DNA from: a virus
DNA: 37,245 bases
IMG/VR virus record: IMGVR_UViG_3300049053_000025
Location: 1-37,245 of that record
Reading direction: 5' to 3' (one strand)
The notes beneath the pieces are model-generated. The model was not told where the DNA came from, searched no databases, and was given only the letters and a program-made list of their open reading frames with translations. The translations under genes were made by a program, and so were the position numbers. Position 1 is the first letter of the stretch; the number at the start of each line of letters is the position of its first letter. This document shows, piece by piece, positions 1 to 37,245 of the stretch.

Positions 1-1928
1 CCGACGCCCCGCCCGTCGTACCCCCCGCCCTGCGCCGCTGGGACGTCTTCAAGGACACCGTCCGCTGGACCGCCTCCTACTACGGGCACGTCACCGGCTT
101 CCACACCCTCCGCACGCCCGTCTACCTCGCCCGTCTCCTGCTGCGCTCCCCGCGCGGCGCCGGACGGCTCATCGTCCGCTGGGGCAAGTGGGTTGCCGAC
201 ACCGAGGCCCGGCCCGTCGAAGCCAAAGCGGCCGCCTCAGCGGACATCGACGCGTGGCTCGCCCTCTCGCGGGAACACTCCCGCCGCGTCCGCCCGCGCC
301 GTATCGCCTCCCTCGCCGTGGCCACCGCGACCGGCATCACCACCCTGGTCAGCTCGTTCCTGGTGCCCGGCTGGACCCTCACCGCAGCAGTCGCCGCCAC
401 GGCGCTGGTCGGCGTGGCCGGGAAGAAAGGCGACAAGCCCCTCATCACCCGCTACGTCGCCACCAACGTGATGCGCCGCCTCGACTCCACCGAGGTGTTC
501 GACGCGCTCGCCGCCATCGGCATCGAGGGCAAGAAGGGCCGCCGCGGCGTCGAGTTCGCGGCCGAGGTCATGCGCGACGGCCCCGGCTGGCGCGCCGAAG
601 TCGACCTCCCCGCGGGCATCGAAGCCACCGCCGTCCTGGAGAAGCGGGCCGCCCTCGCCGCCGCCATGCGCCGGCCCATCTCCACCGTGTGGCCCGAAGC
701 CGACCGCACCGCCCACCCCGGCCGCCTCGTCCTGTGGGTCGCCCAACGAGACCCCGCCAAGGCCGGCCGCAAGCTGTGGCCACTCATGAAGGACGGCCAG
801 GCCGACGTGTACGAGCCGCTCCCCTTCGGCTTCGACCCGCGCGGCAACCTCGTCGAGATCACCCTCATGTACTCCAACCTGCTGGTCGGAGGCATCCCCG
901 GCTCCGGCAAAACGTCCTGCGCCCTCGCCATCGTGTTGGGCGTCGCCCTCGACCCCACCGCCGAACTGTGGATCTACGAGCTGAAGGGCTCCGGCGACCT
1001 CGACTCCGTCAAACCGATCTGCCACCGGTACGTGTCCGGCGACGAAGACGAAGACCTCGAGGCCGCCCTCGCCGGCATGCGCTCCGGCATCGCCGAATAC
1101 CAGCGCCGCGCCGCGTTCGTGCGCTCCCTGCCCGCCTCCGAAGTCCCCGAGGGCCGCAAGGTCACCCGCGCCCTCGCCGAGAAGTACCCCGAGCAGGACC
1201 TTGGGCCGCGCGTCATCGTCATCGACGAGGTCCAGGAGCTGTTCACCCACGACGACTACAAGGAAGAGGCCGCCGCCCTGGCAACCCGCCTCATCAAGAA
1301 GGCCCGCGCCTACGGCATCATCCTCATCCTCCTGACCCAAAACCCCGACGCCCCGTCCCTGCCCACCTCGGTCTCCAGCTCGGTCGGCACCCGCCTCTGC
1401 CTCGCCGTCATGGACTGGAGGGCCAACAACAACGTCCTCGGCACCGGCGCCTACGACCGCGGCCTGCGCGCCACCGACATCAGCATCGACGAGCAGGGCA
1501 CCGGCATCCTCGCCCGCGGCCGCGAAGGCATCACCGTCCGTGCCGCGTTCATCAAACAGACCGAAGCCGAGGACATCGCAGCGCGCGCCCTCGCCCTCCG
1601 CACCGCGGCCGGCACCCTGTCCGGGCAGTCCGTCGGCGCGGCTGTCGAGGAGCTGGACGTTGAGACGGTCCTCGACCACCTTCGCGCTGTCTGGCCAGAC
1701 GGTGTGGAGGCCGTGCACTCCCACCGGCTCGTCGAGGCCCTCGCCCGCTACCGCAGCGACCAGTACGGGCCGTGGCTGGAGATGGATGCCGCAGCCGCCT
1801 CTACAGCGCTCAGTGCGGCGCTGAAGCCCTTCAAGGTGTCCACTCGGCAGCTCACCATCAGGGAGTGCTGCGGCGGCGCCAAGGGTCTCCGTCACGCCGA
1901 CATCGCGGAGCCCGCAGAGGGCGAATAA
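1..1928 (+). CDS. TraB/FtsK-SpoIIIE-like DNA translocase (5' truncated)
   Basis: The open frame runs in from the window edge (first full codon at base 3), so the start is missing; 641 residues are visible. Streptomyces TraB proteins are FtsK-like hexameric motors that move double-stranded plasmid DNA between mycelial cells. Seen here: a basic N-terminal stretch, a hydrophobic pair of membrane segments at about bases 300-425, Walker A GGIPGSGKTS at 888-917, Walker B RVIVIDEVQEL near 1212-1240, and an FtsK-type motif LLTQNPDAPSLP. The C-terminal 60 residues could be the winged-helix DNA-recognition domain typical of TraB. TAA ends it at 1926-1928. A repeat cluster follows directly, as clt does behind traB in Streptomyces plasmids. 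An FtsK-domain protein with membrane segments is unusual in a tailed phage, where packaging is done by the terminase. Family assignment is firm; a role in conjugation is inferred. Confidence 0.85.
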   Translation, partial: DAPPVVPPALRRWDVFKDTVRWTASYYGHVTGFHTLRTPVYLARLLLRSPRGAGRLIVRWGKWVADTEARPVEAKAAASADIDAWLALSREHSRRVRPRRIASLAVATATGITTLVSSFLVPGWTLTAAVAATALVGVAGKKGDKPLITRYVATNVMRRLDSTEVFDALAAIGIEGKKGRRGVEFAAEVMRDGPGWRAEVDLPAGIEATAVLEKRAALAAAMRRPISTVWPEADRTAHPGRLVLWVAQRDPAKAGRKLWPLMKDGQADVYEPLPFGFDPRGNLVEITLMYSNLLVGGIPGSGKTSCALAIVLGVALDPTAELWIYELKGSGDLDSVKPICHRYVSGDEDEDLEAALAGMRSGIAEYQRRAAFVRSLPASEVPEGRKVTRALAEKYPEQDLGPRVIVIDEVQELFTHDDYKEEAAALATRLIKKARAYGIILILLTQNPDAPSLPTSVSSSVGTRLCLAVMDWRANNNVLGTGAYDRGLRATDISIDEQGTGILARGREGITVRAAFIKQTEAEDIAARALALRTAAGTLSGQSVGAAVEELDVETVLDHLRAVWPDGVEAVHSHRLVEALARYRSDQYGPWLEMDAAAASTALSAALKPFKVSTRQLTIRECCGGAKGLRHADIAEPAEGE

Positions 1929-1941
1929 GGGGTCTCAGGAC

Positions 1942-2030
1942 GGTTTCGGATCAAGGCTGTGGTTTCACCTCGGTCCGAAACCGGTTTCGCCCCCGATATC
2001 GGCCCCCACCTGCACAGTTTCGAGTTTCGA
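1942..2030. repeat. GTTTCG repeat cluster, candidate clt / TraB recognition sequences
   Basis: Six GTTTC-core motifs lie within 89 bp right after the TraB-like gene: GGTTTCGGA (1942-1950), GGTTTCAC (1961-1968), TCCGAAACC (1974-1982, inverted), GGTTTCGC (1983-1990) and two tandem GTTTCGA units (2017-2023, 2024-2030). CGAAACCGGTTTCG at 1976-1989 is a perfect 14-bp palindrome. The first and third motifs form 9-bp inverted arms 23 bp apart. Known TraB proteins bind 8-bp repeats in a clt locus next to traB; this assignment by position and repetition is inference. Confidence 0.5.
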
Positions 2031-2118
2031 GCCCTCACACCCGGCCCCGTATCCGGCCCGGAACAGCGCCCTCGACGACCACCTTCCAACCCGATGTCAC
2101 CCACCAACTGGAGACCTG

Positions 2119-3588: not shown

Positions 3589-3739
3589 TCGGACCCAGGG
3601 GGGTGACCCCCGGCCGGCGTGGGGGTGAACAGCGCGGGGGAGGGCGCTGCCTGGTCCGTCGGGTTCAGAGGGTCCCCGCTTGTCACGCAAGGTGACGGCT
3701 TGGTGCTGCGCAATGCAGCGCGTTGAAGGAGTGATCGAC
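3589..3739. other. Dyad-rich stretch before terminase, candidate cos region
   Basis: No gene is seen. Three dyads occur: GGGGGT-G-ACCCCC (3599-3611), GTCAC-GCAAG-GTGAC (3682-3696) and GCTGC-GCAAT-GCAGC (3705-3719). The last two have the same 5+5+5 layout, nearly the same centre, and are 8 bp apart. In phages with HNH plus terminase genes, the cos cleavage and small-terminase binding sites commonly lie here. Assignment is inferred from context. Confidence 0.35.
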
Positions 3740-4222
3740 ATGCCCCGTGGTGGAGCGCGCGCGGTCTCCGGGCCGCCGCCGGACCCGAGGTCGCTGCGCA
3801 GCACGAGGTCCCAGGACAAGGGCGGGTGGCGGACGCTGCCCGCCGAGGGCCGCGGCGAGCCGGCGCCCGAGTGGCCGCTGACGACCCCGTCCGACCGTGA
3901 GCTGGACCTGTGGGAGGACCTGTGGGCGAAGCCTCAGGCCGTGGCGTGGGAGGACATGGGGCAGGAGCTCGAGGTTGCCCTGTTCGCGCGGACGCTCGCT
4001 GAGGCCGAGCGGGCCGACGGGCGGGTGGACGTGAAGAAGATGGTGCGCGGGTACCTCGACTCGCTCGGGCTGAGCGTGGCGGGTATGAACCGCAACCGGT
4101 GGAAGGTCGCCCCCGCGCTGGAGGGCGAGGATGAGGGAGCGCCGGAGACCGCGGCCCCGGCCGTGCGGCGCCCGTCGGCCCGTGACCGGCTGAAGGTCGT
4201 GCCCAGTGGCGAAGGGGCCTGA
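3740..4222 (+). CDS. Terminase small subunit
   Basis: Start ATG 3740 is chosen because GAAGGAG lies at 3725-3731, 8 nt upstream; an in-frame TTG at 3680 has no such site. The 160-residue protein has a disordered Pro/Arg/Gly-rich N-terminus, a helical middle (acidic, Trp-rich SDRELDLWEDLWAKPQ, then long helices), and a charged C-terminal tail. This is the usual build of actinophage small terminases of the P27-like group, which recognise the packaging site and load the large subunit. The end overlaps the large subunit by 17 nt. Assignment rests mainly on length and position. Confidence 0.75.
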   Translation: MPRGGARAVSGPPPDPRSLRSTRSQDKGGWRTLPAEGRGEPAPEWPLTTPSDRELDLWEDLWAKPQAVAWEDMGQELEVALFARTLAEAERADGRVDVKKMVRGYLDSLGLSVAGMNRNRWKVAPALEGEDEGAPETAAPAVRRPSARDRLKVVPSGEGA

Positions 4223-5858
4223 CGCCGGGCCCGAGTTCGTCGTCGACTTCCCGACCCTGTGGATCGTTCCGGACTGGATCGAACACCACTGCCCGGTTCC
4301 GGACGGTTTCCGTGCGGGCGAGGACATGCAGCTGTACCCGTGGCAGCTGTGGTGCACGGCCAACCACTACCGGGTGAAGCCCGGCGTTGATCCGTACCGG
4401 GAGAATGGTGAGCGTCGGTTCGCCTCTGCGTTCCACTACCGGCGCAGTCAGATCGTGGCTCCGCAGAAGACGGGCAAGGGTCCGTGGTCGGCGACGATCG
4501 TCCTTGCTGAGGCGGCCGGCCCGGTCGTGTTCGACGGGTGGGCGCGCGGCGGCGAGCGGTACCGGTGCTCGGATCATGGATGTGGGTGCGGCTGGTGGTA
4601 CGAGTACGAGCCGGGTGACCCCATGGGGACGCCGTGGCCGACTCCGCTGATCCAGTTGATGGCCACGTCGGAGTCGCAGGTCGACAACGTGTACCGGCCG
4701 CTTCAGTCGATGGTGAAGAGGGGCCCGCTCGGCGAGTTGATGAAGGTGGGCGAGGAGTTCACCCGGGTCGGCGATGACGGGAAGATCGAGACGGTGACGT
4801 CGTCCGCGCTGTCGCGGCTGGGCAACCCAATCGTCTTCGCCCTGCAGGACGAGTCCGGGCTGTACACGGCGGCGAACAAGTTGCGGAAGACCGCCGAGAG
4901 TCAGCGCCGGGGCGCGGCCGGTATGGGCGGCCGGTCGATGGAGACGACGAACGGGTGGGATCCGTCCGAGGCCTCGGTCGCGCAGACGACGCATGAGGCC
5001 AAGGCGAAGGACATTTTCAAGTACCACCCTGAGGCGCCGAAGTCGCTGTCGTACAGCAACAAGCGGGACCGCCGGAAGATCCACGCTGTGGTGTATGCGG
5101 GCTCGTCGCACGTCGACCTCGACGCCATCGAGGCCGAGGCGTCCGAGATCATGGAGAAGGATCCGGCGCAGGCTGAGCGGTTCTTCGGGAACCGGTGTGT
5201 GGCCGGTACGGCGTCCTGGCTGGACGGCGCGAAGTGGGCGGCCAGGGCGAAGCGGCGGCGCGTGCCGCCGGGCACGCGGATCGTCCTCGGCTTCGACGGC
5301 TCGGACGTGGACGACTGGACCGCGATCCGCGCAGAGACGATGGACGGCTACCAGTTCACGCCGCTGTACGGGCCGGAGGATGCGCCGACGATCTGGAACC
5401 CCGCCGACTATGACGGCCAGGTGCCGCGCGCCGAAGTGCGGGCGGCGTTGGACCAGGTGATGCGCCGGTACGACGTGGTGCGGCTGTACGCGGATCCGCC
5501 GTACTGGGAGAGCGAGGTCGACGAGTGGGTTGACGAGTACGGCGAGGAGCGGGTGATCCGCTGGCATACGCGCCGCATCGTTCAGATGCACGCGGCGTGT
5601 GAGCGGCTGAAGACGGACGTCCTCAAGCGCAACAGCAAGGGGTGGGCATTCACCCATGACGGGTGCCCGATCACGCAGTCGCACATCGAGAACACCCGCG
5701 CGGCCGCGCGGCCGATGGACCGGTACGTCCTGCGTAAGGCAAGCCCCGTCCAGAAGATCGACGCCACGGTCACCAGCGTCCTGGCGCACGAGGCGCTGGG
5801 CGACGTCATCGCCGCGGGCCTGGCCGAGCGCACCGTGTCCTACTACTACGGCGGTTGA
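4206..5858 (+). CDS. Terminase large subunit
   Basis: GTG start inside the end of the small subunit gene; 550 residues. It is the ATP-driven packaging motor and nuclease. The N-terminal ATPase half shows a Walker-A-like loop APQKTGKGPW, then the Walker B segment IVFALQDESGLY with the catalytic DE. The C-terminal nuclease half begins at RIVLGFDGSDVDDWTAI with acidic metal ligands, followed by RLYADPPYWESEVDEW and a last conserved stretch ending HEALGDVIAAG. Length and motif order are those of HK97/TerL-type enzymes of actinophages. It contains no TTA codon, unlike the terminases of some Streptomyces phages that are bldA-dependent. Confidence 0.92.
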   Translation: MAKGPDAGPEFVVDFPTLWIVPDWIEHHCPVPDGFRAGEDMQLYPWQLWCTANHYRVKPGVDPYRENGERRFASAFHYRRSQIVAPQKTGKGPWSATIVLAEAAGPVVFDGWARGGERYRCSDHGCGCGWWYEYEPGDPMGTPWPTPLIQLMATSESQVDNVYRPLQSMVKRGPLGELMKVGEEFTRVGDDGKIETVTSSALSRLGNPIVFALQDESGLYTAANKLRKTAESQRRGAAGMGGRSMETTNGWDPSEASVAQTTHEAKAKDIFKYHPEAPKSLSYSNKRDRRKIHAVVYAGSSHVDLDAIEAEASEIMEKDPAQAERFFGNRCVAGTASWLDGAKWAARAKRRRVPPGTRIVLGFDGSDVDDWTAIRAETMDGYQFTPLYGPEDAPTIWNPADYDGQVPRAEVRAALDQVMRRYDVVRLYADPPYWESEVDEWVDEYGEERVIRWHTRRIVQMHAACERLKTDVLKRNSKGWAFTHDGCPITQSHIENTRAAARPMDRYVLRKASPVQKIDATVTSVLAHEALGDVIAAGLAERTVSYYYGG

Positions 5859-5868
5859 GGAGGGCCTG

Positions 5869-7374
5869 ATGGCTACGGAGGGGCAGGCTCTCCAGCTGGT
5901 GGCGCTGCTGGAGAACGAACTGATCCGCCGGCGCGGTCCGATCGACCGGTACAACGCCTATTACCGGGGCGACCACCCGCTGAAGTTCGCGTCAGCGGAG
6001 TTCGCGAAGTTCCACGGGGCGCGTTACAAGGACTTCAGCGACAACTGGACGCAGGTCGTCGCCGACTCCCCGGTCGAGCGGCTGACCGTGACGGGGTTCC
6101 TCGCCGACGGCGAGACGGAGGCGGACAAGGATCTGTGGCGGGTGTGGCAGGTCAACGGTCTCGACGCCGACAGCCAGCTGGGGTTCCTCGGCGCGGTGAC
6201 CGGGGCTCGGTGTTTCGTGCTGGTGTGGGGCGATCCCGACGACCCGGACATGCCCGTCGTCACGTTCGAGGACGCGTCGCAGTCGATCGTCGCCTACGAA
6301 CCCGGCTCGCGCCGGAACCGCAGGGCGGCGCTGAAGCGGTGGCAGGACGGTAACCAGGACTACGCCACGCTGTACCTGAAGAACGAGGTGTGGAAGTTCT
6401 GCCGCCCGCTCGCGCAGCAGGACAAGTCCCCGCAGATGGCGGACGTCGACGAGGAGCTGAAGCGGTGGCAGCCGCGGGAGATGGGCGACGAGCCGAACCC
6501 GCAGCCCAACCCGATGGGTGTCGTGCCGATGGTGGAGCTCCCCAACAAGCCGATGCTGGTTGAGGATCCGATCAGCGATGTCGGCGGCGTCGTCGCGATG
6601 CAGGACGCGATCAACCTGGTGTGGGCGCAGTTGTTCACCGCGAGCGACGCGGCGTCGTTCCCTCAGCGCGTGGTCATGGGTGCCGAACGCCCGATGATCC
6701 CGAAGCTGAACAGTGCGGGCGAGATCATCGGTCAGCAGCCCGTCGACCTCGACAAGTTCATGGTGGACCGGGTCGCATGGATCACCGGCAAGGACGCTCG
6801 GATCGACTCGTGGCCGGCCGCGAACCTGGCCATGTACACCGGGATCCTGGAGGTCGCCGTCGGCCACCTGGCCGCGCAGTCCCGCACCCCGCAGCACTAC
6901 CTGATCGGGAAGATGGCCAACCTCGCCGAGGGCGCGCTGCTCGCGGCGGAGACCGGCCTCGTCAAACGCTGCGACGAGAAGATCCTTTGGTACGGGCAAG
7001 GCCTGCGTGAGGTGGGCCGGCTGATCGCGCTCGCCAAGGGTGAGGACGCGAAGGCTCAGGCGCTGCGTTCGGGCCGGGTGCTGTGGGCGGACACCGAGTC
7101 CCGCAGCCACGCGCAGATGGCCGATGCGCTGCTGAAGCTGAAGCAGCTCGGGTTCCCCTTCGAGTGGCTGGCCCTGCGCTACGGGCTGACGCCGACGGAG
7201 GTGGCCGACGTGGTGACGATGCGGGAGCGGGAGATGGAGATGGACCCGGTCGCCGAGATCACCCGCACCCTGACCGCGGGGGCGCCCGAGCCGCCCGGCG
7301 CCGACGTCCCGGGGGCGGAGGTCGAGGAACCGGATGAGCTGGAGGACGCGGATGCCGAGGAGGCTGCGGCGTGA
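5869..7374 (+). CDS. Portal protein (SPP1 gp6-like)
   Basis: ATG 5869 with GAGGAGGG just upstream, 10 nt after the terminase stop; 501 residues. The portal is the dodecameric ring at one capsid vertex through which DNA passes. Seen: YNAYYRGDHPLKF near the N-terminus, the NWTQVVADSPVERL segment, a central VPMVELPN motif, SDVGGVVAMQDAINLVWAQL, and the SRTPQHYLIG segment typical of SPP1 gp6-like actinophage portals. An acidic low-complexity C-terminus ends the protein. The stop overlaps the next GTG (gtga), so portal and minor head protein are coupled. Confidence 0.92.
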   Translation: MATEGQALQLVALLENELIRRRGPIDRYNAYYRGDHPLKFASAEFAKFHGARYKDFSDNWTQVVADSPVERLTVTGFLADGETEADKDLWRVWQVNGLDADSQLGFLGAVTGARCFVLVWGDPDDPDMPVVTFEDASQSIVAYEPGSRRNRRAALKRWQDGNQDYATLYLKNEVWKFCRPLAQQDKSPQMADVDEELKRWQPREMGDEPNPQPNPMGVVPMVELPNKPMLVEDPISDVGGVVAMQDAINLVWAQLFTASDAASFPQRVVMGAERPMIPKLNSAGEIIGQQPVDLDKFMVDRVAWITGKDARIDSWPAANLAMYTGILEVAVGHLAAQSRTPQHYLIGKMANLAEGALLAAETGLVKRCDEKILWYGQGLREVGRLIALAKGEDAKAQALRSGRVLWADTESRSHAQMADALLKLKQLGFPFEWLALRYGLTPTEVADVVTMREREMEMDPVAEITRTLTAGAPEPPGADVPGAEVEEPDELEDADAEEAAA

Positions 7375-9170: not shown

Positions 9171-10034
9171 ATGACCGTGCGGAACTTCGTTCCCGAAATC
9201 TGGAGCTCGCGACTGCTCGTCGCGACCCGCAAGGAGCTCATCTACGCGAGCCCCACCGTCGTCAACCGCGACTACGAGGGCGAGATCGCCGAGGCGGGCG
9301 ACACCGTCCGCATCACGTCGGTGTCCCGGCCGTCGATCGGCACCTACACCCCCGGATCGACGACGATCACGCCGGAGAACCTGACCACCGGTCAGCGCAC
9401 GCTGCTGGTGGACCAGTCGAAGTATTGGGCGTTCGCGATCGACGACGTCGACAAGCGGCAGGCCAAGAAGGACCTGATCCCGCAGGCGATGAGCGAGGCC
9501 GCCTACGCGCTCGCCGACACGATCGACCAGTACGTGGCCGGGCTGTACACGCAGATCCAGTCCGACAACTTCCTCAACGTGGTCGGCTCGCCGATCGACA
9601 CGTACACCACGCCGACGGACGCCTACGACGAGGTCCTGGTGCCGCTGCGCACGAAGCTGTCCAAGGCGAACGTGCCGAAGATGGGCCGGTACGTCATCGT
9701 GCCGGCGGAGTTCTACGCGTCGCTGCTCAAGGACGACCGGTTCGTGAAGGCCGACGCGGCGGGCACGGACCAGGGCCTGCGCAACGGGTTCGTCGGCCGG
9801 GCGGCCGGCTTCGACATCTACGAGTCGAACAACTGCCCCGTACCGACCGGGGACACCACGGTCGTCCAGGCCGGTGTGAAGGCGGCCGTCACCTTCGCCG
9901 AGCAGATCAACAAGACCGAGGCCTACCGCCCGGAGAACTCCTTCGAGGACGCGGTCAAGGGTCTGGCCCTGTATGGAGCGAAGGTCATCCGCCCGGACCA
10001 CCTGGCCGCCGCGTTCATCAACCCCGCCGCCTGA
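9171..10034 (+). CDS. Major capsid protein
   Basis: ATG 9171 with AGGAGG shortly upstream, the strongest ribosome site among the head genes, as expected for the most abundant protein. The 287 residues begin VRNFVPEIWSSRLL and include VNRDYEGEIAEAGDTVRI, DDVDKRQAKKDLI, a YVIVPAEFYASLL segment and the end VIRPDHLAAAFINP. This is the pattern of actinophage coat proteins with the HK97 fold (P22 Gp5-like group). There is no long N-terminal delta domain, consistent with a separate scaffold. Confidence 0.92.
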   Translation: MTVRNFVPEIWSSRLLVATRKELIYASPTVVNRDYEGEIAEAGDTVRITSVSRPSIGTYTPGSTTITPENLTTGQRTLLVDQSKYWAFAIDDVDKRQAKKDLIPQAMSEAAYALADTIDQYVAGLYTQIQSDNFLNVVGSPIDTYTTPTDAYDEVLVPLRTKLSKANVPKMGRYVIVPAEFYASLLKDDRFVKADAAGTDQGLRNGFVGRAAGFDIYESNNCPVPTGDTTVVQAGVKAAVTFAEQINKTEAYRPENSFEDAVKGLALYGAKVIRPDHLAAAFINPAA

Positions 10035-13223: not shown

Positions 13224-13658
13224 ATGGCTGGTGAAGACGCAACCGGGACACAGCTCAAGCGGGACTCCACGGGCAGCGGCGTGTTCGTGACGATCGCGAG
13301 TGTGGAGGACCTGTCGGGCCCCTCCCGCACCCGCAACATGATCGACGTGTCCGCGCACGACTCCCCGAACAAGTACCGCGAGTTCGCCAAGGGCATGAAG
13401 GACGGCGGCGACGTCACCGTCACCATCAACTACCGGCCCGGGGAGACCACCCACCAGGCCCTCGACGACGACTTCGAAGAGGACGACCTGCGCGACTACC
13501 AGATCGTCATCCTGCCGGGCGAAACGGACGAGCACACCTGGGAGTTCTCCGCCGGCATCAGTGACATCGGCGATGAGTTCCCGCTCGACGACAAGATGGC
13601 CCGAGAGGTCACCTTCAAGATCTCCGGCAAGCCTGTCCTGACCGCGACCGGCGCCTGA
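13224..13658 (+). CDS. Major tail (tube) protein
   Basis: ATG 13224 after GAAGGGAAG; 144 residues. It contains FVTIASVEDLSGPSRTRNMI, then VTVTINYRPGETTHQAL and WEFSAGISDIGDEFPLDDK, the pattern of TP901-1-type tail tube proteins whose N-terminus names a target and whose core is a beta-barrel hexamer. No Ig-like C-terminal decoration is present. It precedes the chaperone pair as in most siphophages. Confidence 0.88.
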   Translation: MAGEDATGTQLKRDSTGSGVFVTIASVEDLSGPSRTRNMIDVSAHDSPNKYREFAKGMKDGGDVTVTINYRPGETTHQALDDDFEEDDLRDYQIVILPGETDEHTWEFSAGISDIGDEFPLDDKMAREVTFKISGKPVLTATGA

Positions 13659-14090: not shown

Positions 14091-14395
14091 CAGAGCACCT
14101 CGGGATGACGGTGGCCGACCTGGACTCCCGGCTGGGTTCGGCCGAGCTGACCGAGTGGATGGCGTTCGAGAGGATCACCGGTCCGCTCGGCAGGCGCCGG
14201 CAGGACATTCAGGCGGCCACCATCGCGGCCACCATCGCCAATGCCAACCGGGGCAAGGGCGGCAAGCGATTCACGCCGCAGGACTTCCTGCTGCCCTACG
14301 GCATCGAGCGGAAGGGGCCGCAGGAAATGCTGGCGGCCATCCGCGGCATCAACAGGTCGATGGGGGGTGAAGAGCATGTCCGACGTGACAGTTGA
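13680..14395 (+). CDS. Tail assembly chaperone, frameshifted G-T fusion
   Basis: A -1 frameshift at 14045-14051 joins the first 124 residues of the G product to a second frame running to TGA 14393-14395, giving about 238 residues. The T part begins LRRRPERLFRFRLAEHLGMT and goes on VADLDSRLGSAELTEWMAF, a pattern well known from actinophage T-domains. The T frame has no good start of its own. The fusion ends 20 nt inside the tape measure gene. Frameshifting keeps G and G-T in a fixed ratio. Confidence 0.88.
14045..14051 (+). promoter_or_regulatory. Programmed -1 ribosomal frameshift site GGGAAAC
   Basis: In the G frame the bases read G GGA AAC, the X XXY YYZ layout of a -1 slippery heptamer. 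After AAC the ribosome re-reads one base and continues with CTC CGA CGC in the T frame. Position near the end of G is the expected one for siphophage tail chaperones. Confidence 0.88.
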
Positions 14396-15956
14396 GATCG
14401 CCGCGGACATGGGCAACACGTCCGCGACGATCAACGACGCCACCGCCAGCCTGGACGATCTGGGCAGCGCGGCAGACGCGGCCGGCAGCGACCTGGACGG
14501 GGCGTCGAACGCCGCACAGGACACCGACAACCGGATGGCCGGTCTCGGCGCCGGCGCCCTCGCGGCGAGCGCCGGTTTCGCCAGCATGACCGACATCGTC
14601 GGTCAGGCTGTCGACCTGTGGAATATCGGCGACCGTGCCGCCGACACCCTGGCCCGCGCGGAAAACGACGTGGCCCAGGCGGCGCTCGACCTGAAGCAGG
14701 CGAACCAGGACGGACGCCAGGCTCAGCTCGACGCCAACCAGGCAAAGGTCGACGGGGTACAGGCCGGCATCGACCTCGAGCAGGCTCTGCTCGACCAGAA
14801 GACGGCGCAGAAGGACTACAACGACGCCGTCAAGGAGTACGGGGCCGACTCGCTGGAGGCCCAGCAGGCGGCCATCGACCTGAAGCAGGCGGACGCCGAC
14901 GCCAAGCAGGCCAAGCTCGACGGCAAGCAGGCGACCGAGGACTACAACCAGGCTCAGATCGACGGCAAGCAGGCAGTCGTCGATGCCAAGAACGCGCAGC
15001 TGGATCTCAACGAGGCGCAGCGCAATGTGCAGTCATCGAGCATCATGGACGGCTGGTTCGGCGTCATCTCGCAGATCAGCACCGTCGTGTTCGGCTTGGT
15101 GGGAACGTTCGCGCTCCTCGGCGGGGGGATGCTGACGACTGCTGCGACCGCCGTCACTACCGCGGCAACGACTGCATTCGCGTGGGTTTCCGCCTGGGTC
15201 ACCATGACCGTGCAATCCCTGGTCAACGCCGCGCGGATGGCGGCGGCATGGCTGATCGCGATGGGGCCGATCGTGCTCATCATCGCCGCGGTGGTCGGCC
15301 TGGTCGCCCTGATCATCGCGAACTGGGACACCGTCAAGGCGTGGACCATCAAGATCTGGAATGCCGTGTGGGACTGGCTCAAGGGTCTGTGGGACGACGT
15401 CGTCGGCCTGTTCAACTGGGCTGTCGGAATGGTCAAGACGATCTTCTTCACCTTCACCCCGCTGGGCATCATCATCAAGAACTGGGGTGCGATCACCGAC
15501 TGGGTCTCGACCCAGTGGCGCAACATCGGGCGAACGATCTCCGGCTGGGTCGACAAGATCAAGGGCTTCTTCAGGGGCATGTGGGACGGCGTCGTCTCCG
15601 GCCTGAAGGGGGCGCTCAACGGAATCATCGGCCTGCTCAACGACGGCATCTACGGCGTCAACGTCCTGATCAGCGGAGCCAACCGCATCCCTGGCGTCGA
15701 CATCGGCTTCATTCCCTACATCCCCTACCTCGCCGAGGGCGGTGTCACTACCGGGCCGACCCTGGCCATGATCGGTGAAGGCCGGGAGCAGGAAGCCGTG
15801 CTTCCCCTGAGCAAGCTCCAGGGCCTGCTGAACATGCAGGGCGGCGGCCAGCCGATCATCCTCCAGATCAACGGGGGCGGCTTCCGCGAGTTCCTTCAGG
15901 AGGACGTCCGGGTGAAGGCCGGAGGCGACATCGTCAAGTACGCCGGAGGTGACTGA
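14376..15956 (+). CDS. Tape measure protein (short)
   Basis: ATG 14376 follows GGGGGGTGAAGA and overlaps the chaperone end. Length is 526 residues, short for the family; at about 1.5 angstrom per residue it predicts a tail near 80 nm. Residues about 100-230 are an Asp/Gln/Ala-rich helical repeat (units like DLKQADADAKQAKLDGKQA), then hydrophobic segments (VVFGLVGTFALLGGGM, IVLIIAAVVGLVALIIANW), Trp-rich repeats (IWNAVWDWLKGLWDDV), and a C-terminal domain with LAEGGVTTGPTLAMIGEGRE, the usual end of tape measures. No peptidase or lysozyme domain is seen. Confidence 0.92.
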   Translation: MSDVTVEIAADMGNTSATINDATASLDDLGSAADAAGSDLDGASNAAQDTDNRMAGLGAGALAASAGFASMTDIVGQAVDLWNIGDRAADTLARAENDVAQAALDLKQANQDGRQAQLDANQAKVDGVQAGIDLEQALLDQKTAQKDYNDAVKEYGADSLEAQQAAIDLKQADADAKQAKLDGKQATEDYNQAQIDGKQAVVDAKNAQLDLNEAQRNVQSSSIMDGWFGVISQISTVVFGLVGTFALLGGGMLTTAATAVTTAATTAFAWVSAWVTMTVQSLVNAARMAAAWLIAMGPIVLIIAAVVGLVALIIANWDTVKAWTIKIWNAVWDWLKGLWDDVVGLFNWAVGMVKTIFFTFTPLGIIIKNWGAITDWVSTQWRNIGRTISGWVDKIKGFFRGMWDGVVSGLKGALNGIIGLLNDGIYGVNVLISGANRIPGVDIGFIPYIPYLAEGGVTTGPTLAMIGEGREQEAVLPLSKLQGLLNMQGGGQPIILQINGGGFREFLQEDVRVKAGGDIVKYAGGD

Positions 15957-19497: not shown

Positions 19498-19767
19498 ATG
19501 GCCAACCAACCCACACCGTCCGTCGGGCGGATCGTCCACTACGTCAGCCACGGCACCCCGGTCCGCGAGGACGGCACGCAGGCCTACACGACGCAGTGCC
19601 GCGCAGCGATCATCACCGCTGTCGGCGACGACCCGGACATCGTCGGCGTGGCCGTCCTGAACCCGACGGGCATGTTCTTCCACGAGGCGGTCGGCCACTT
19701 CGAACCCGAGGAACCCGCCGACCTCCGCCACGCGGGCGGCACCTGGCACTGGCCGGAGCGTGTCTGA
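19498..19767 (+). CDS. Conserved phage protein, 89 aa
   Basis: ATG 19498 with GGAGG 7 nt upstream. The sequence opens SVGRIVHYVSHGTPVREDGT, then TTQCRAAIITAV and GVAVLNPTGMFFHE, a pattern I know from many Streptomyces phages and prophages, where it lies just before the endolysin. Function is unknown; it may be a small SH3-like or beta-barrel protein. The stop overlaps the endolysin ATG. Confidence 0.7.
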   Translation: MANQPTPSVGRIVHYVSHGTPVREDGTQAYTTQCRAAIITAVGDDPDIVGVAVLNPTGMFFHEAVGHFEPEEPADLRHAGGTWHWPERV

Positions 19768-20495
19768 TGGCTACTCCCCTGACCCCGTCGACGTTCCTGG
19801 CGAAGCTGCGCGCCGAAGGCGTGAAGGTCCAAGAACACGGCGACTGGCGCACCCACAACCGGGCCGGACACGGCACGTGGGGGCCCGTGCACGGCGTGAT
19901 GATCCACCACACCGTCACCAAGGGCACCACGAACACGGTCAAGATCTGCACCGACGGCTACTCGGGACTGCCCGGCCCGCTGTGCCACGGCGTCATCGCC
20001 AAGGACGGCACCGTCCACCTCATCGGCTACGGCCGCGCCAACCACGCCGGGCTGGGTGACGACGACGTCCTCCAGGCGGTCATCGCCGAGAAGCCGCTCC
20101 CGGCAGCGAACGAGGCGAACACCGACGGCAACGCCCGTTTCTACGGCTTCGAGTGCGAGAACCTCGGCGACGGCAAGGACCCGTGGCCCGCCGTCCAGGT
20201 CGAGGCGATCGTCCGCACGGCCGCCGCCATCTGCCGGGCGCACGGCTGGGGCGAGGACGGCGACACCTCCGTCATCGGCCACAAGGAATGGCAGCCCGGA
20301 AAGGTCGACCCGCGCGGCCCCGGGGTATCCATGCCGGACATCCGTAAGCGCGTGGTCGAGCGGCTCAAGCATGCGGCCGGCTGGTCACCCAGCACACCCA
20401 CACCGAAGCCGGAGCCGAAGCCGAAGCCGACTGTCGAGGAGCGGCTGACCGCTCTGGAGAAGCGCGTCACCGCGCTGGAGAAGAAGGGTTCCTGA
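19767..20495 (+). CDS. Endolysin: N-acetylmuramoyl-L-alanine amidase
   Basis: ATG 19767 overlaps the previous stop (TGATG); 242 residues. Amidase_2/PGRP-type catalytic domain at about 5-205: H47 in GVMIHHTV, H172 in VIGHKEW and D181 in KVDPRGP are the likely zinc ligands, and K179 lies where the T7 lysozyme lysine sits. It cuts the bond between N-acetylmuramic acid and L-alanine of peptidoglycan. A Pro/Lys/Glu linker (TPKPEPKPKPT) leads to a short coiled coil with the repeat LTALEKRVTALEKK, with no ordinary cell-wall-binding domain; the coil may oligomerise it. No signal peptide, so it needs the holin that follows. Confidence 0.92.
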   Translation: MATPLTPSTFLAKLRAEGVKVQEHGDWRTHNRAGHGTWGPVHGVMIHHTVTKGTTNTVKICTDGYSGLPGPLCHGVIAKDGTVHLIGYGRANHAGLGDDDVLQAVIAEKPLPAANEANTDGNARFYGFECENLGDGKDPWPAVQVEAIVRTAAAICRAHGWGEDGDTSVIGHKEWQPGKVDPRGPGVSMPDIRKRVVERLKHAAGWSPSTPTPKPEPKPKPTVEERLTALEKRVTALEKKGS

Positions 20496-23116: not shown

Positions 23117-23140
23117 GGTGCGGCCCCCGGTATCGCGTGC

Positions 23141-23170: not shown

Positions 23171-23279
23171 CCGGTGGGGGATCGCGTCGACACCATCTGT
23201 CACACCACGGTGGTCAGATCACGAGCCCCGGCGACCGCTGACACGGCCCCGGGGTATGGCCGACTGGTTAGGAGTCGAC

Positions 23280-24723: not shown

Positions 24724-24730
24724 CAACCGG

Positions 24731-24774
24731 TAGGCCCTGTGGGACTCGAACCCACAACCAATGGATTAAAAGTC
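24731..24774 (-). other. attP core: 3' part of tRNA-Lys(UUU)
   Basis: Read on the minus strand this 44-bp stretch runs from the anticodon loop CTTTTAA (anticodon TTT, 24770-24768) through a perfect T arm GTGGG-TTCGAGT-CCCAC to the acceptor end AGGGCCTA. The 5' half of a tRNA is absent: the bases beyond 24774 do not pair with the anticodon stem and no D arm is present. This is the form of a phage attachment site that restores the host tRNA on integration. The integrase gene lies 300 bp away. Only one copy is seen. Confidence 0.85.
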
Positions 24775-25086: not shown

Positions 25087-26685
25087 CTACTCCGGAACAG
25101 CGTCCGGGGCGGGGGCCTTGGCGTCTCCTCGCCGAGCGCGCGGTACGGCGGCCGCCGCCTTCTCCGTCAGCTCCTGCTCGTACTCCGTGAAGAGTTCGAG
25201 GTAGGTATCCGCGGTAAGGGTGATCGTTGAGTGGCGCAATTTCACCTTGGCGTCGTGCACGTCTCCGCCGCCGGCCTTCACAAGCGCTGCCGCGCCATGG
25301 CGCAGGTCCCGCAGGTTGATCGGAGGCAGGCCCGCGGCCTCGACGATCCGCTTGAACTCCTTGCTGACGACGTCGGGATGGAGCCAGCTCCCATCCTCCG
25401 CCGCGAAGATCTTGCCCGTGTCGACCCAGTCCGCTGTATGTTTGCCCGCCGCCCGCTCCTCGGCGGCCCGCGCGTTCCAGGCGTCCCGCTCCTGTAGCTG
25501 GCGGGCGCGGTGCTCCTTGAGGACCGCCACGGTCCCGCGGTCGATCATCACCGACGACATCGACGAGTCCGTCTTGGGCGCCGTCTCGATGACCTCCCAC
25601 CCGTCGACGACAAGCTCGGTGAGGACATCAAGGCGCGGCTGCGCGGCCTCCAAGTGGGCGTTCGCCCAGTCCGCGCCAACCGCCTCGCCGCGGCGCAGGC
25701 CGTGGTGCGAGATGACGTGAAAGGCGGCGTACAGCCTGCTGCTCTCGGCCTCGTCGAGGAATGCACCGAGCTGGACGGGCGTCCACACCATGACCGGTGA
25801 CGGCTGCTTGCCCGTCTCACGCCAGCGGGCCACCCGCTCGTCGGTCCACAGCAGGCCCTTCGGGCGCGCGCTGGAGCCGAGTTCGACGTGGGCGGCCGCA
25901 TTGAAGGTGATGAGCTGCTCGGCGATGGCCTTGTTGAGGGCAGCGCGCAGAGTGCGCCGGATCGCGTGCCGCGTCGCCACGGTGTTCGTCTTCCGGTACG
26001 GCTTCATCTCGGCGAGCTTCGCGCGCTCTGCGGCGAGCCTCGGCCGTTCCGTGGCCGGCGGCCGCCCTGGCTTCGACCACTTGCAGCGCGCTTCCTGTTC
26101 GCGTCGGGCTTCGTTCTCTGCCCGGATTACGTCGCTCTCGTCGGCGATCGCGTCGAACATCTCCTGGACGTGCCCGACGCTGAGCCGATCCAGGCGCAGG
26201 TGTCCGATGCGCGGCTTCAGGTGCACGCGGATGTGGGAGGCGTAGCCGTTGTTTGTGGTGGGGCGCGTCTTCTTCTTCGACATCCAGCGGTCGAGCCATT
26301 CGGCGACCGTGGCTTTCCCGTCGAGGGGGACGCCGACGCCGAGGCGTCGCTGTACTTCTGATGGTTCGGGGATGTCGGCGCGTCGCTTCGAGATGTCCGC
26401 GAGCAGATCCCCGACCCTGCGCTGTTCGTCTTCGTCGTCACCGGGGAGCGCGAGGATGGCCTGTAGGCGGGAGAGGTCGCCCTGGGCCTCCGTGACGCTT
26501 CCGTATCCGGTTCGACGAAAGGATCGACGCTTGCCGTCGGCACCGGGAGGGAGTTCCTGCCGTACCGCCGCCGCGCCATGGTTCTTCTTCTTCAGCTGGG
26601 GACAGCTGTTCCCCAGCAGCTTGCCGTCCGCACCACGGCACTCGCACCGCTTGTAGATGCTTCCTGCCCTGCGTACCGACGGCAT
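25087..26685 (-). CDS. int: Tyrosine integrase
   Basis: ATG 26685 with AGAGGAG upstream; 532 residues, normal for long Streptomyces integrases. The N-terminus has a Cys-containing arm-binding part (KRCECRGADG), then a core-binding SAM-like domain near 125-190 (VAEWLDRWMSKKKTRPTTNN) carrying a charged insertion, and the catalytic domain from about 300. Catalytic residues: R331 (HGLRRGE), R462 in LRDLRHGAAAL, H485 (LRHSTITL) and nucleophile Y495 (TADTYLEL). The usual His of the HxxR box is R459. It recombines attP with a tRNA-Lys attB. Its ribosome site lies in the 3' end of the upstream gene. Confidence 0.95.
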   Translation of the reverse strand: MPSVRRAGSIYKRCECRGADGKLLGNSCPQLKKKNHGAAAVRQELPPGADGKRRSFRRTGYGSVTEAQGDLSRLQAILALPGDDEDEQRRVGDLLADISKRRADIPEPSEVQRRLGVGVPLDGKATVAEWLDRWMSKKKTRPTTNNGYASHIRVHLKPRIGHLRLDRLSVGHVQEMFDAIADESDVIRAENEARREQEARCKWSKPGRPPATERPRLAAERAKLAEMKPYRKTNTVATRHAIRRTLRAALNKAIAEQLITFNAAAHVELGSSARPKGLLWTDERVARWRETGKQPSPVMVWTPVQLGAFLDEAESSRLYAAFHVISHHGLRRGEAVGADWANAHLEAAQPRLDVLTELVVDGWEVIETAPKTDSSMSSVMIDRGTVAVLKEHRARQLQERDAWNARAAEERAAGKHTADWVDTGKIFAAEDGSWLHPDVVSKEFKRIVEAAGLPPINLRDLRHGAAALVKAGGGDVHDAKVKLRHSTITLTADTYLELFTEYEQELTEKAAAAVPRARRGDAKAPAPDAVPE

Positions 26686-28462: not shown

Positions 28463-28942
28463 ATGTCTGAGCTTCCCATGGCCGCCGCGCCGTCCACCAC
28501 GCCCGAGGTTGCCCTCGCGCTCGCCAACATCGAGGCCGCCAAGCTGGTGGACCCTGACATCGCCGAATGCCTCGACGCCATCGGTGACCTGATCAGAATC
28601 ACCGGCAAGCCCGAGGCCATCTACGCCTGGGTCGCTGAGACCCTCGGCCGCGAGCACCTCAAGCAGTACGCCGCCCGGCACCGCATCACGGTGCATGAGT
28701 CGCGGGCTGTCGACACGGAGCGGCTAGCCAAGACGGTCATCATCTGGGCCGCCGACGGCGCGGGAATGGCCCTCATCCCGACCGGCCAGGCCCCCGCCAT
28801 CACCCTGCTCCAGCTGCGTGAGGAGATCGCGCAGCGCGAGGAGGACGCGCAGCGGGCCCTCGACTTCCAGGCGTCCATCGCGGCCGGCCACGTCGAGGAC
28901 GTCGACACCTGGCACGCCCGCACCACCCGGCCGGGGAAGTGA
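28463..28942 (+). CDS. Hypothetical early protein, 159 aa
   Basis: ATG 28463 after a weak GGGG site. The product is helical: PEVALALANIEAAKLVDPDI, then CLDAIGDLIRITG, EAIYAWVAETLGREHLKQYA and a coiled segment LQLREEIAQREEDAQRALDF. I do not recognise the family. It is part of the unbroken early operon between the Xis-like and replication genes and its stop overlaps the next GTG, so a replication-associated role is likely but unproven. Confidence 0.65.
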   Translation: MSELPMAAAPSTTPEVALALANIEAAKLVDPDIAECLDAIGDLIRITGKPEAIYAWVAETLGREHLKQYAARHRITVHESRAVDTERLAKTVIIWAADGAGMALIPTGQAPAITLLQLREEIAQREEDAQRALDFQASIAAGHVEDVDTWHARTTRPGK

Positions 28943-29169
28943 CCGCCACGTCGGCGCGCGCCCGGGACACGCCGGGCCGCGCCACCGTCCCGCAGCAACT
29001 CGACGGCGTGCTGGTCATCGACTTGATCAAGATCGGCGCCCGCTACGAGTGCTACCGCCCGGGGTGCCCCAAGCCCCGCGAGGAGCCGATCAAGCCGTCT
29101 GCCATCTCGGCGTTCATCGGCGGCATCAAGGCCCGCCACCTCAGCCAGTACCACGGGGAGCACCGTTGA
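28939..29169 (+). CDS. Small C2H2-like zinc protein, 76 aa
   Basis: GTG 28939 overlaps the previous stop. The ending YECYRPGCPKPREE to GIKARHLSQYHGEHR gives C-x4-C and two histidines spaced like a zinc finger. Proteins with this C2H2 look are found just before replication genes in Streptomyces elements. Probably DNA-binding. Its stop overlaps the TTG start of the replication protein. Confidence 0.65.
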   Translation: MTATSARARDTPGRATVPQQLDGVLVIDLIKIGARYECYRPGCPKPREEPIKPSAISAFIGGIKARHLSQYHGEHR

Positions 29170-32009
29170 CCGACACACAGCCCACCGACCTCCGGGCGGC
29201 AGCCCGCGAGCTGCACGACGCGGGCCTGTGCGTCCTGCCCATCAAGGCCGACGGCACCAAGAAGCCGGCCGTGTCCTGGATGGGGTACAAGGTCGCACGG
29301 TCCACCCCCGAGGAACATGACACCTGGTTCGGCGCCGACCGGCCTCGCGGCATCGCCGTCGTCTACGGGCAGGTGTCCGGCGGCGTCGAGCTGATCGAGT
29401 TCGAGGGCCTCGCCATCCGCGAGGGCCTGCTCAACGAGGTCACCGAGATCATGGAGGCGTCCGGGCCCCGGATCGCCGAGGCGTGGACTGCCATCCTCGG
29501 CGGCTGGGTGACCGAGTCGCCGTCTGGCGGGCGGCACTACCGCGTCCGCGTCGAGGGCGGCGACGTCCCCGGCAACACCAAACTGGCGTCCCGTCTCGCC
29601 CGCGAGGACGAGTACACAGAGGCCGAGAAGCAGCGGCGCCGCGAGAACCCGAACGCCCGCATCGTCCGCGTACTCATCGAGACCCGTGGAGAGGGCGGCT
29701 ACGGCCTCGTCGAGCCTTCCGGCGGCCCGGTCCACGCCTCGGGCCGCCCCTACATCCGGGTGGCGGGCGGGCCCGCCTCCATTCCGGTCGTCGACGCCGA
29801 GACCATGGACGCCGTCCGGTCTGTGTGCCACATGGTGGACCGGCTCCCCCAGCCCGAGGCGCCGAAGACCGCACCGCGCCCGGCACCGCCCCGCCCGGAC
29901 GGCACCCTGCGGCCAGGCGACGACTTCGAGGCCCGCGCCGACTGGGCCGACGTCCTCCGGGGAACCTTCCGCCCCCTGCACACCCGGGGCAGTGAGACCT
30001 ACTGGGGTTGGGCCGACGGCGTCGGCGGCGTGAAGGCGACAACAGGGAAGGACGAGCACGACAGGCTGTTCGTCTTCGCCACCGGCAGCGAGTTCCAGTC
30101 CGAGGTGCCCTACTCGAAGTTCGGCGCCTACGCCCTGCTCAACCACGGTGGCGACCACAAGGCCGCCGCGCGGGCCCTCGCCCACCAGGGCTACGGGCGT
30201 CGCCGCCTCTCCTCTGTGGGCGGTGGGGCATCGACGTCGACGCCCACAGCCCCGGACGGCGAAGCGGCTCCGGACGAGGGCGTTGCGGAGCAGCAGGTCG
30301 AGGGCGACCCGGAGGGGTTCGGCTACGACACGACATTCGGCCTGCCCCGCTCGGTGCGCACTCCGTACGGCTACCGGGTCACGGGCATGGGCGTCGAGGT
30401 GCTCAGTGCGAACGGTGAGAACTGGACGCGGATTGCGTTCTCTCCCCTGGTCGTGACCGCCACATTCGAAGACCCCGAGGGTGACCAGTACGTGGAGCTG
30501 TCGTGGATCGACCGAAGCCTCGGACGCCCGCGCCGGATCTCCCGCATCGTCAGCCGCGAGACCGCGAAGCGCGGCCGAAAGCTGATCGAAACGCTCGGCT
30601 CGGCGGGACTGCCCGCAGTCGAAGGCGACGCTCGGGCCGTCGAGAAATGGCTGGCCGAGTTCGAGGCGGCCAACGTCGGCCGCATTCCGTCCGAGCAGCT
30701 GGCGCGCTGGCTTGGCTGGCAGGACGACGGCACGTTCGTCTCGTCGCCCGAGGACGGCATCAAGGTCGACGTGCCATTCGAGGAGCAGCGCGGCCCGGCC
30801 CGAGCACACGCCAGGAAAGGGAGCCTCGATGGCTGGCGGGACACCGTCGCCCAGCTGGCCGGCTTCTCGGTGCCGCGCGTCGCCGTCGCGGCGGCGCTCG
30901 CCGCTCCGCTGCTCAAGCCTCTCGGGCTGAACAGCTTCACCCTCGACATCTCCAGCCGCTCCACCAAGGGCAAGACGACCGCGCTCCAGTGCGCGCTCAG
31001 CGTGTGGGCCGACCCATCCGAGCACGCCAGCGCCATGTCGAACTGGCGCACCACGCTGTACGCAATCGAGAAACGACTGAACCTGGTGCGCGGAATCGTC
31101 ACCGTCTTCGACGAGACGATGGCCGTCACGGACGACACCCTCATCGACGAGGTGCTGTACCAGCTCCCGATGAACCACGGGAAGGCCCGCAGCGGCGGCG
31201 CGTTCGGCAACATGCTGCCCTGGGAGACCATCCTCCTGTCGTCCGGCGAACGCCCGGCTCTGTCCTTCACCACCAGCCAGGGCGCCGCCGCCCGCATCCT
31301 CGGCACGACGATCGCTCCCTTCGGCGACGGCGGCGGCCCCACCGCAGCGGCTGTACGGGACGGCGTCCTCGCCCACCACGGGCATGCCGGCCCCGAGTTC
31401 ATCCAGTACATCCTCAGCGGCCTGGCCCAGCCCAACGGGCGGGAGAAGCTGAAGGAACACCACCGCACGCTCGTCGACGAGTTCCGCGGCGGCGGCGACA
31501 TGACGAACCGGCGCGCACCGATGGTCGCCGTCCTCGTGCTCGCCGAGATCCTCGCGTGCCGGATCGGGTTGCTGCCGTACGAGCCGCTCGCCCACGACGT
31601 CTGGCGCGGGCTGTTCACCGCCCACAACCCGACCGACAACCGGCCCGAGATGGCTCTGGACGTCCTCCGAGAGTACGTGGCTGGCCACGCGCACGAGCTG
31701 TACAGCACGGCCCGCGGGTACCTGGCCGAGCAGCGCCCGCCGTTCTCCGGCTGGCTGGGGGTCATCGCCAACGACAAGGGCGTCACGAAGATCTCGCTAC
31801 TGCCCGAGCGCGTACGGAAGATCCTCGCCGAGGCGGGCTACTCCCTCGACGCGGTGGTCGGCAGCTGGGTCGACGCCGGGTATCTGGAGACGCTCAAGAG
31901 CCAGCGGCCCCCACACCTCGTGCCGCGACGGTTCGACGGCGCCCGCGCGAAGTGCCTGGCTTTCACCCCGGCGGGCATGCCGTACGGCGACCAGGACGAG
32001 GCGGCATGA
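29166..32009 (+). CDS. Primase-polymerase / DUF927 helicase replication protein
   Basis: TTG 29166 overlaps the upstream stop (TTGA); 947 residues. N-terminal prim-pol domain (about 1-240): GLCVLPIKADGTKKPAV, the metal-ligand region VELIEFEG (E78, E80; the family usually has Asp) and SPSGGRHYRV with H124. Prim-pol enzymes prime and extend DNA. A Pro-rich linker (about 240-260) leads to a middle domain and the C-terminal DUF927 ATPase: Walker A STKGKTTA near residue 600, Walker B GIVTVFDET, and SGERPALSF. The combination gives a self-contained plasmid/AICE-type (RepPP-like) initiator. An iteron cluster follows at once, as expected for its origin. Confidence 0.88.
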   Translation: MTDTQPTDLRAAARELHDAGLCVLPIKADGTKKPAVSWMGYKVARSTPEEHDTWFGADRPRGIAVVYGQVSGGVELIEFEGLAIREGLLNEVTEIMEASGPRIAEAWTAILGGWVTESPSGGRHYRVRVEGGDVPGNTKLASRLAREDEYTEAEKQRRRENPNARIVRVLIETRGEGGYGLVEPSGGPVHASGRPYIRVAGGPASIPVVDAETMDAVRSVCHMVDRLPQPEAPKTAPRPAPPRPDGTLRPGDDFEARADWADVLRGTFRPLHTRGSETYWGWADGVGGVKATTGKDEHDRLFVFATGSEFQSEVPYSKFGAYALLNHGGDHKAAARALAHQGYGRRRLSSVGGGASTSTPTAPDGEAAPDEGVAEQQVEGDPEGFGYDTTFGLPRSVRTPYGYRVTGMGVEVLSANGENWTRIAFSPLVVTATFEDPEGDQYVELSWIDRSLGRPRRISRIVSRETAKRGRKLIETLGSAGLPAVEGDARAVEKWLAEFEAANVGRIPSEQLARWLGWQDDGTFVSSPEDGIKVDVPFEEQRGPARAHARKGSLDGWRDTVAQLAGFSVPRVAVAAALAAPLLKPLGLNSFTLDISSRSTKGKTTALQCALSVWADPSEHASAMSNWRTTLYAIEKRLNLVRGIVTVFDETMAVTDDTLIDEVLYQLPMNHGKARSGGAFGNMLPWETILLSSGERPALSFTTSQGAAARILGTTIAPFGDGGGPTAAAVRDGVLAHHGHAGPEFIQYILSGLAQPNGREKLKEHHRTLVDEFRGGGDMTNRRAPMVAVLVLAEILACRIGLLPYEPLAHDVWRGLFTAHNPTDNRPEMALDVLREYVAGHAHELYSTARGYLAEQRPPFSGWLGVIANDKGVTKISLLPERVRKILAEAGYSLDAVVGSWVDAGYLETLKSQRPPHLVPRRFDGARAKCLAFTPAGMPYGDQDEAA

Positions 32010-36862: not shown

Positions 36863-37077
36863 GCACCTACGACCCGCTCTACAACCCGGAGAGGGATGCG
36901 CATGCGCTCGTCCCTGCGCTGCCGCAGGCCATCGACCGGGCGCGGAAGGTCCTCGCCGAGAAGGCTCAGGCGAACATCCACGACCGGGACGAGATGATCC
37001 GGGCCGCCTACGGTCTCCACTACGTCCTGCACGACCTGCTCGCCGCGCTCGAAGCGGAACGGGGTGAGGGCCGGTGA
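36859..37077 (+). CDS. Hypothetical helical protein, 72 aa
   Basis: ATG 36859 overlaps the previous stop. Helical: ALPQAIDRARKVLAEKAQAN then YGLHYVLHDLLAALEAERGE. No family recognised. Its stop overlaps the GTG of the Spd-like gene, so the two are coupled. Confidence 0.6.
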   Translation: MSTYDPLYNPERDAHALVPALPQAIDRARKVLAEKAQANIHDRDEMIRAAYGLHYVLHDLLAALEAERGEGR

Positions 37078-37245
37078 ACACCCGCCAACTCACCAACGGA
37101 CAGGCCCGGGTCCTCGGGACCGCCACAGTGGCCATGCTCGCCGTCGGCGGCTTCGGCGCATGGGGCACCTACACCAACACCGTCACCGAGTTCGGGCGCG
37201 CCGCCACCGCCGCCGGCGTCGTCGCCGCCGGAGAAGGCCTCACCC
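37074..37245 (+). CDS. Spd-like / DUF2637-like membrane protein (3' truncated)
   Basis: GTG 37074 overlaps the previous stop; 57 residues are visible before the window ends. The start TRQLTNGQARVLGTATVAML followed by AVGGFGAWGTYTNTV and GVVAAGEGLT resembles, from memory, the first membrane segments of conjugation-associated Spd-like proteins in Streptomyces elements, which act in intramycelial plasmid spread next to TraB. The rest is missing. Because the left end carries the TraB C-terminal part, the two genes are probably close together in the intact genome. Confidence 0.55.
   Translation, partial: MNTRQLTNGQARVLGTATVAMLAVGGFGAWGTYTNTVTEFGRAATAAGVVAAGEGLT

Follow-up and report, generated by a model that had tools for sequence, protein, structure and literature searches.

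Two published elements of Streptomyces combine a phage genome with conjugative functions. Plasmid-phages are presented in PMC4170104, which cites Chen et al. 2012 for pFP4, as elements that conjugate and propagate as episomes and also form infective particles; pZL12 (phage ZL12, NC_013420) is named as a published Streptomyces plasmid-phage in PMC3583192, and both pZL12 and pFP4 are cited again in PMC4487206. Because of these two precedents, a phage with conjugative transfer genes is not a new category. In the plasmid pWTY27 the clt locus is reported to comprise 16 bp of traA and the adjacent 159 bp, and TraB is reported to recognise 8-bp repeats via its C-terminal winged helix (PMC3583192).

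The DNA analysed here (the window) is 37,245 nt long and makes up the whole of IMG/VR virus record IMGVR_UViG_3300049053_000025, which IMG/VR classes as linear. It is of high G+C content and is coded chiefly on the + strand. Searches with PHROGs and Pfam profiles revealed genes for terminase, portal, protease, scaffold, major capsid, tail terminator, major tail, tape measure and endolysin proteins (Table 1), and the combination of terminase, portal, capsid, tail, lysis and integrase genes with an attP is that of a temperate siphophage. Like pZL12 and pFP4 (the latter compared by its published description), the window and its relatives are actinophage genomes with a tra gene. ZL12 differs in its size of 90 kb and in its ParA/ParB genes, which were not found among the proteins searched here, and its FtsK-like gp71 is not close to the TraB of the window (best match, Gilgamesh, 21.5%); the window family, in contrast, integrates at a tRNA gene, and its TraB is of the AICE type and is accompanied by a separate clt-like site. 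The Streptomyces phage Gilgamesh likewise possesses an FtsK-type ATPase, and this protein (gp10) was the sole match to the motor of the window among 50,697 phage records, but the identity is 24% over 40% of the protein and the Gilgamesh translocase lies outside the TraB group in our tree. The Pseudonocardia element pPaSha2 (CP052773) is a 42-kb circle with terminase, holin, Bet and integrase genes and adjacent DUF2637 and FtsK genes, and is probably a phage-plasmid with a related transfer pair; its TraB is only 41% identical to that of the window, however, and the conserved GTTTCG element described below is absent after its traB. The prophage Samy was considered as an experimentally active member of the family and dropped; the Samy paper mentions no TraB or FtsK.

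Table 1. Features of the window and of its integrated relative in the S. scabiei 87.22 chromosome.
Sequence	Feature	Position	Strand	Basis or remarks
Window	traB-like FtsK/SpoIIIE motor; 641 C-terminal aa present (full length about 694), truncated at the 5′ end by the contig start	3..1928	+	ORF, Pfam, motifs, tree
Window	clt-like element	1936..2034		inverted repeat 1941-1956/1968-1983; palindrome CGAAACCGGTTTCG 1976-1989; GATATC; ACCTGC; AGTTTCGAGTTTCGA
Window	terminase large subunit	4206..5858	+	profile search
Window	portal protein	5869..7374	+	searched as 5656-7374; start set to avoid terminase overlap
Window	major capsid protein	9171..10034	+	profile search
Window	major tail protein	13224..13658	+	profile search
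Window	tape measure protein	14241..15956	+	profile search
Window	endolysin (amidase)	19596..20495	+	PHROGs/Pfam
Window	attP, 47 bp identical to S. scabiei prophage att repeats (tRNA-Lys 3′ end)	24728..24774	-	
Window	tyrosine integrase, 72% identical to S. scabiei prophage integrase	25087..26685	-	PHROGs/Pfam
Window	primase/polymerase-helicase (DUF927)	28818..32009	+	PHROGs/Pfam
Window	RadD-like DNA helicase	32348..33958	+	PHROGs/Pfam
Window	Spd-type membrane protein, start only, 3′ end cut by contig	37074..37245	+	ORF; relatives; phrog_16651
S. scabiei 87.22	47-bp att repeats (tRNA-Lys 3′ end)	5383574 and 5425562		identical to each other and to window attP
S. scabiei 87.22	terminase	5404457-5406037		
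S. scabiei 87.22	traB	5409944-5412037		
S. scabiei 87.22	Spd-type gene	5413080-5414201		ORF call; aligned copy L053/L078
S. scabiei 87.22	large ORF in primase position	5417105-5419843		
S. scabiei 87.22	integrase	5423659-5425341		72% identical to that of window

The reading frame of the motor is open throughout, and comparison with the complete homologue of locus L035 (694 aa) indicates that about 53 aa of the window copy were lost at the contig start. The encoded protein matches FtsK_SpoIIIE (PF01580) with 30.8 bits (cut-off 24), retains intact Walker A (GGIPGSGKT), Walker B (VIVIDE) and LLTQNP motifs, and possesses two N-terminal hydrophobic stretches (residues 103-121 and 120-138). Profile searches against TraB/FtsK_SpoIIIE and Spd families had been suggested as a check; FtsK_SpoIIIE was matched, whereas the motor stayed below the cut-off of the plasmid TraB model (NCBIfam NF041214; 22.4 bits against 800) and the Spd protein had no DUF2637 match. 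AlphaFold models of the motor had a mean pLDDT of 59.5, which is only fair, and of 49.8 with a shallow alignment. The best fold matches were 6t8o (FtsK) and 6o1x (TcpA), so that the model supports an FtsK-type motor only. Its C-terminal domain was helical in the former model and, when submitted alone, gave no fold match. Pairwise dN/dS values of 0.15-0.44 for traB relative to the window copy indicate that the gene is held under purifying selection in the phage lineage.

Proteins closely related to the motor, with 62-94% identity, are encoded at 42 IMG/VR loci and 20 loci in GTDB genomes. In a maximum-likelihood tree calculated by a quick method from 639 columns, all phage proteins formed one clade (SH-aLRT 100), and this clade was nested within a 41-row group of plasmid and AICE TraBs (SH-aLRT 100) that includes those of pSVH1, pSG5 and pFP11. 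Chromosomal FtsK and EccC fell outside the group, and pIJ101 TraB was among several long branches without placement. The phylogeny called for in the original prediction thus puts the motor with pSVH1-type TraB and apart from chromosomal FtsK, while leaving pIJ101 TraB unplaceable. Grouping with chromosomal FtsK or with phage-only ATPases had been named as a result that would refute the prediction; the former is absent, and a phage-only branch is present, but nested among the TraBs of conjugative elements. The closest non-phage relatives of the motor are AICE-type loci with DUF2637, RRQRL, prim-pol/YfjI and integrase genes as neighbours, in which the phage genes of the window were unmatched.

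At the opposite end of the window, the last ORF encodes the first 57 aa of a protein with multiple transmembrane segments that measures about 370-380 aa when complete in relatives. We considered whether this ORF could be the N-terminus of the motor, which was ruled out by its presence as a separate gene in relatives. The two contig ends do join in frame, but a single gene split across them was likewise rejected as a chance join because relatives possess a separate motor N-terminus (MTNNVVQLHK...) and an Spd gene approximately 2.3 kb further upstream. At L035 the counterpart of this last ORF starts 2.5 kb upstream of the position that corresponds to the first traB codon of the window. Since about 2.3 kb separates the Spd-type gene from traB downstream of it in relatives, the contig represents nearly all of a genome, with some 2.3 kb missing, and the full genome would measure about 39.5 kb; small membrane genes occupy the equivalent stretch in relatives. 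Neither the Spd fragment of the window nor its complete L035 homologue matched Pfam DUF2637, but a DUF2637 protein fills the corresponding slot upstream of traB in four phage relatives (L006, L016, L061 and L063). The window-type variant has a 49% identical homologue in the equivalent slot of an AICE-type locus (L076), and 38% identical homologues in Streptomyces phages such as YDN12 that lack a TraB match; on account of the latter, the window-type Spd protein alone is weak evidence for conjugation. The layout proposed in the original prediction, namely a membrane-anchored FtsK-domain protein of TraB-like build followed on the + strand by a siphophage head, tail and lysis set, with an Spd-like gene in which the window ends, is confirmed in each part by the Pfam and PHROGs matches, the motor motifs and hydrophobic stretches, and the whole Spd-type gene of the relatives.

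The intact 47-bp attP carries phage genes on both flanks, from which it follows that the window is an unintegrated molecule. An integrated relative is present in the complete chromosome of S. scabiei 87.22, where the att repeats enclose the genes listed in Table 1 together with other large ORFs situated where portal and tail genes would be expected. Because traB and spd are interior to these repeats, they belong to one mobile unit rather than to two neighbouring ones. The S. scabiei relative combines the integrase, replication and tra genes by which an AICE is recognised, within one att-bounded element, with phage structural genes; the window was not classed as an AICE because of its capsid, tail and lysis genes. 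The notion of a chimera between a phage and a conjugative element is upheld by the kinship of TraB, by an Spd-type partner in the expected place and by a single att-bounded phage genome, and it is strengthened by the clt-like site described below, which the original prediction had not noted. AICEs and small conjugative plasmids (pSVH1, pSG5 and loci such as L044 and L067-L071) resemble the window in having TraB, an upstream Spd or DUF2637 gene and a repeat-rich site directly 3′ of traB, and AICEs also share with it a tyrosine integrase and replication genes of prim-pol type. They differ in that the phage genes of the window are unmatched in L067-L076 and none is annotated in L044.

The sequence that immediately follows traB in the phage loci inspected shows the arrangement CCGGTTTCGGATCAAG-loop-CTTGATCCGAAACCGGTTTCGCCCCCGATATCGG...ACCTGC...AGTTTCGAGTTTCGGG or a recognisable variant of it. 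Exact counting of 7-mers was too blunt for the window (a threefold word was equalled in 24% of random windows), and we used GTTTCG density and scans of sequence collections. Five of the 11 GTTTCG/CGAAAC words of the whole window lie within 87 bp at the element. The arms of the inverted repeat covary, with 26 cells altered on both sides compared to 8.2 in shuffles. Scanning IMG/VR with two patterns returned 38 and 44 contigs (46 in total), and the element adjoined the end of a family traB in 46 of 46, although these contigs are related to one another and are not independent events. Among 296 Streptomyces genomes the core pattern had four matches and its reversed control none; three of the four adjoin traB, one of which is truncated, and the fourth lies in the 8.8-kb element described below. 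New here is this conserved clt-like element directly 3′ of a phage traB, which resembles a plasmid clt in position and make-up and is a candidate clt of the phage. At the equivalent place, pSVH1 has GACCCGGA-type repeats and AICE traBs have clusters of words of the CCGCTAGCG type, whereas CAGGGAGG is the word in two other elements of S. scabiei; the recognition words of these AICEs and plasmids thus differ from the GTTTCG of the window. Base-level homology of the phage element with the clts of AICEs was rejected, as the similarity was not significant.

Four diverged relatives (L117, L156, L157 and L159) have kept the element together with a C-terminal domain that is 63-69% identical, whereas their ATPase is only 51-54% identical. 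Conversely, the Actinomadura phages retain 82-84% identity in the ATPase but have diverged in the element as well as in the C-terminal domain (about 54%). Such joint conservation and drift would be expected if a DNA-binding domain co-evolved with its site. The branch of the four diverged relatives has TraBs of 50-55% identity overall, and the contigs of L156, L157 and L159 are 62-72 kb long. At L151 (G073:C49:16786-17774), a truncated phage-type traB that retains the C-terminal 305 positions only is still accompanied by the clt-like element, and this locus is probably a decayed prophage remnant.

We propose, with a probability of about two in three, that a temperate siphophage lineage acquired an AICE-type transfer module (Spd-type gene, small membrane genes, TraB and clt-like site) and moves either as virions or as naked double-stranded DNA. 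Transfer would take place after excision at attP or during replication. Membrane-bound TraB would load through its C-terminal domain onto the repeated GTTTCG words of the clt-like site and drive the circular double-stranded DNA into the neighbouring compartment through a septum or a contact between hyphae, and Spd proteins would assist spread within the mycelium, such that the phage could spread by either route. The genes and their order, the kinship of TraB, the single att-bounded unit, the linkage of the conserved element to traB and the purifying selection are observed in the sequences, whereas binding of TraB to the element, pumping and passage between cells are inferred. The same genes and site would also be expected if TraB and Spd acted within a single mycelium only, in septum passage, intramycelial spread, stability or wider infection of hyphae, with no mating. 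Plasmid spreading and stability are linked (PMC4170104), and virions already provide the phage with strain-to-strain transfer; the TraB-clt pair of plasmids nevertheless drives transfer between strains (PMC4170104, PMC3583192), and although the sequence does not tell the two uses apart, we consider a purely intramycelial role rather unlikely.

The position of the element allows for a different function. The majority of Streptomyces loci have terminase and portal genes on the same strand within a few kb 3′ of traB. The element thus precedes the terminase genes by a few kb, where it could be a packaging (cos/pac) or replication site, with TraB having a role in the lytic cycle such as genome packaging or concatemer handling; a capsid-bearing, satellite-like element that has the site without traB (see below) would also fit. 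At other loci, including those of Actinomadura, traB is followed by opposite-strand genes that were of lysis or tail type where tested, and a distance of about 21 kb separates the terminase from traB and the element in Actinomadura WMMA1423. The element tracks traB and not the terminase, as the matching terminases at the loci of relatives are 29-91% identical to that of the window compared to 72-94% for TraB (Streptomyces loci). Since pSVH1 and AICEs without the phage genes of the window show the same arrangement 3′ of traB, a packaging or replication site seems improbable.

A hairpin with covarying arms right after a stop codon might instead be the tail of the traB transcript, as a terminator or regulatory structure, rather than a transfer site. 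The element had no match in Rfam, its conserved stretch extends well outside the hairpin, it is inverted relative to traB in three Actinomadura loci (L040, L062 and L082), and one copy occurs without traB; a structured RNA or mRNA tail is disfavoured on these grounds and we give it very little credence. That the arrangement is an artefact, either of a prophage beside an integrated AICE or of contig mis-assembly, would accord with the use of tRNA sites by AICEs and prophages alike and with the many metagenome and draft contigs among the records, but is scarcely tenable given the complete S. scabiei chromosome, whose att repeats exclude neighbouring elements by enclosing traB and spd in one unit with the integrase at one end, and given like arrangements in dozens of isolate and metagenome contigs.

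If the acquisition of a transfer module is the correct explanation, an integrating and otherwise ordinary siphophage family of approximately 40 kb carries a conjugation-type module with a defined candidate cis site, and the particle-free travel of viruses through the mycelium of multicellular bacteria becomes directly testable. Phages may then also pass between joined cells as naked DNA with no particles made, and, should such transfer work, barriers acting at virion adsorption could be bypassed. For many AICEs and plasmids that are still uncharacterised, looking directly 3′ of traB may in addition be a simple rule for predicting the clt site and its recognition word. In most of the plasmid and AICE traBs inspected (L067-L073, L076, L044, L046, L085, L086, L098 and L099), a cluster of a single word was seen within 200 bp 3′ of the gene; the words include CCGCTAG, CAGGGAG and GACCCGGA among others, often with ACCTGC near, and these clusters are candidate clt sites of uncharacterised elements.

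The site was also found in an 8.8-kb element (L149/L150; G314:C1, about 5039756-5048566) that lies between 44-bp repeats of a tRNA-Ala gene and contains a full clt-like site (5042133) as well as genes for an integrase, a regulator of the GntR type and a capsid protein of the HK97 type (PF05065). No phage-type traB is present in this 8.8-kb element, which may be satellite-like or mobilizable; pWTY27 has also been reported with a capsid-like gene (PMC3583192). We tentatively entertain, as a possible but doubtful extension, that widespread Streptomyces and Actinomadura prophages have two working routes, virions and TraB-clt pumping of double-stranded DNA, and that the capsid-bearing element borrows the clt for mobilisation by a phage TraB. 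If true, this would be a satellite that exploits a virus through conjugation, besides or in place of packaging.

Two smaller observations concern the phage genes of the window. The ORF just 5′ of the large terminase gene (3680-4222) matched phrog_226, which is labelled as a minor tail protein (8.9e-25); its position suggests a terminase small subunit, and the phrog_226 label is possibly in error. Between the lysis genes and attP (22265-23666), a divergent pair encodes an HTH_31 regulator (- strand) and a DUF6415 protein (+ strand) and looks like a cargo pair.
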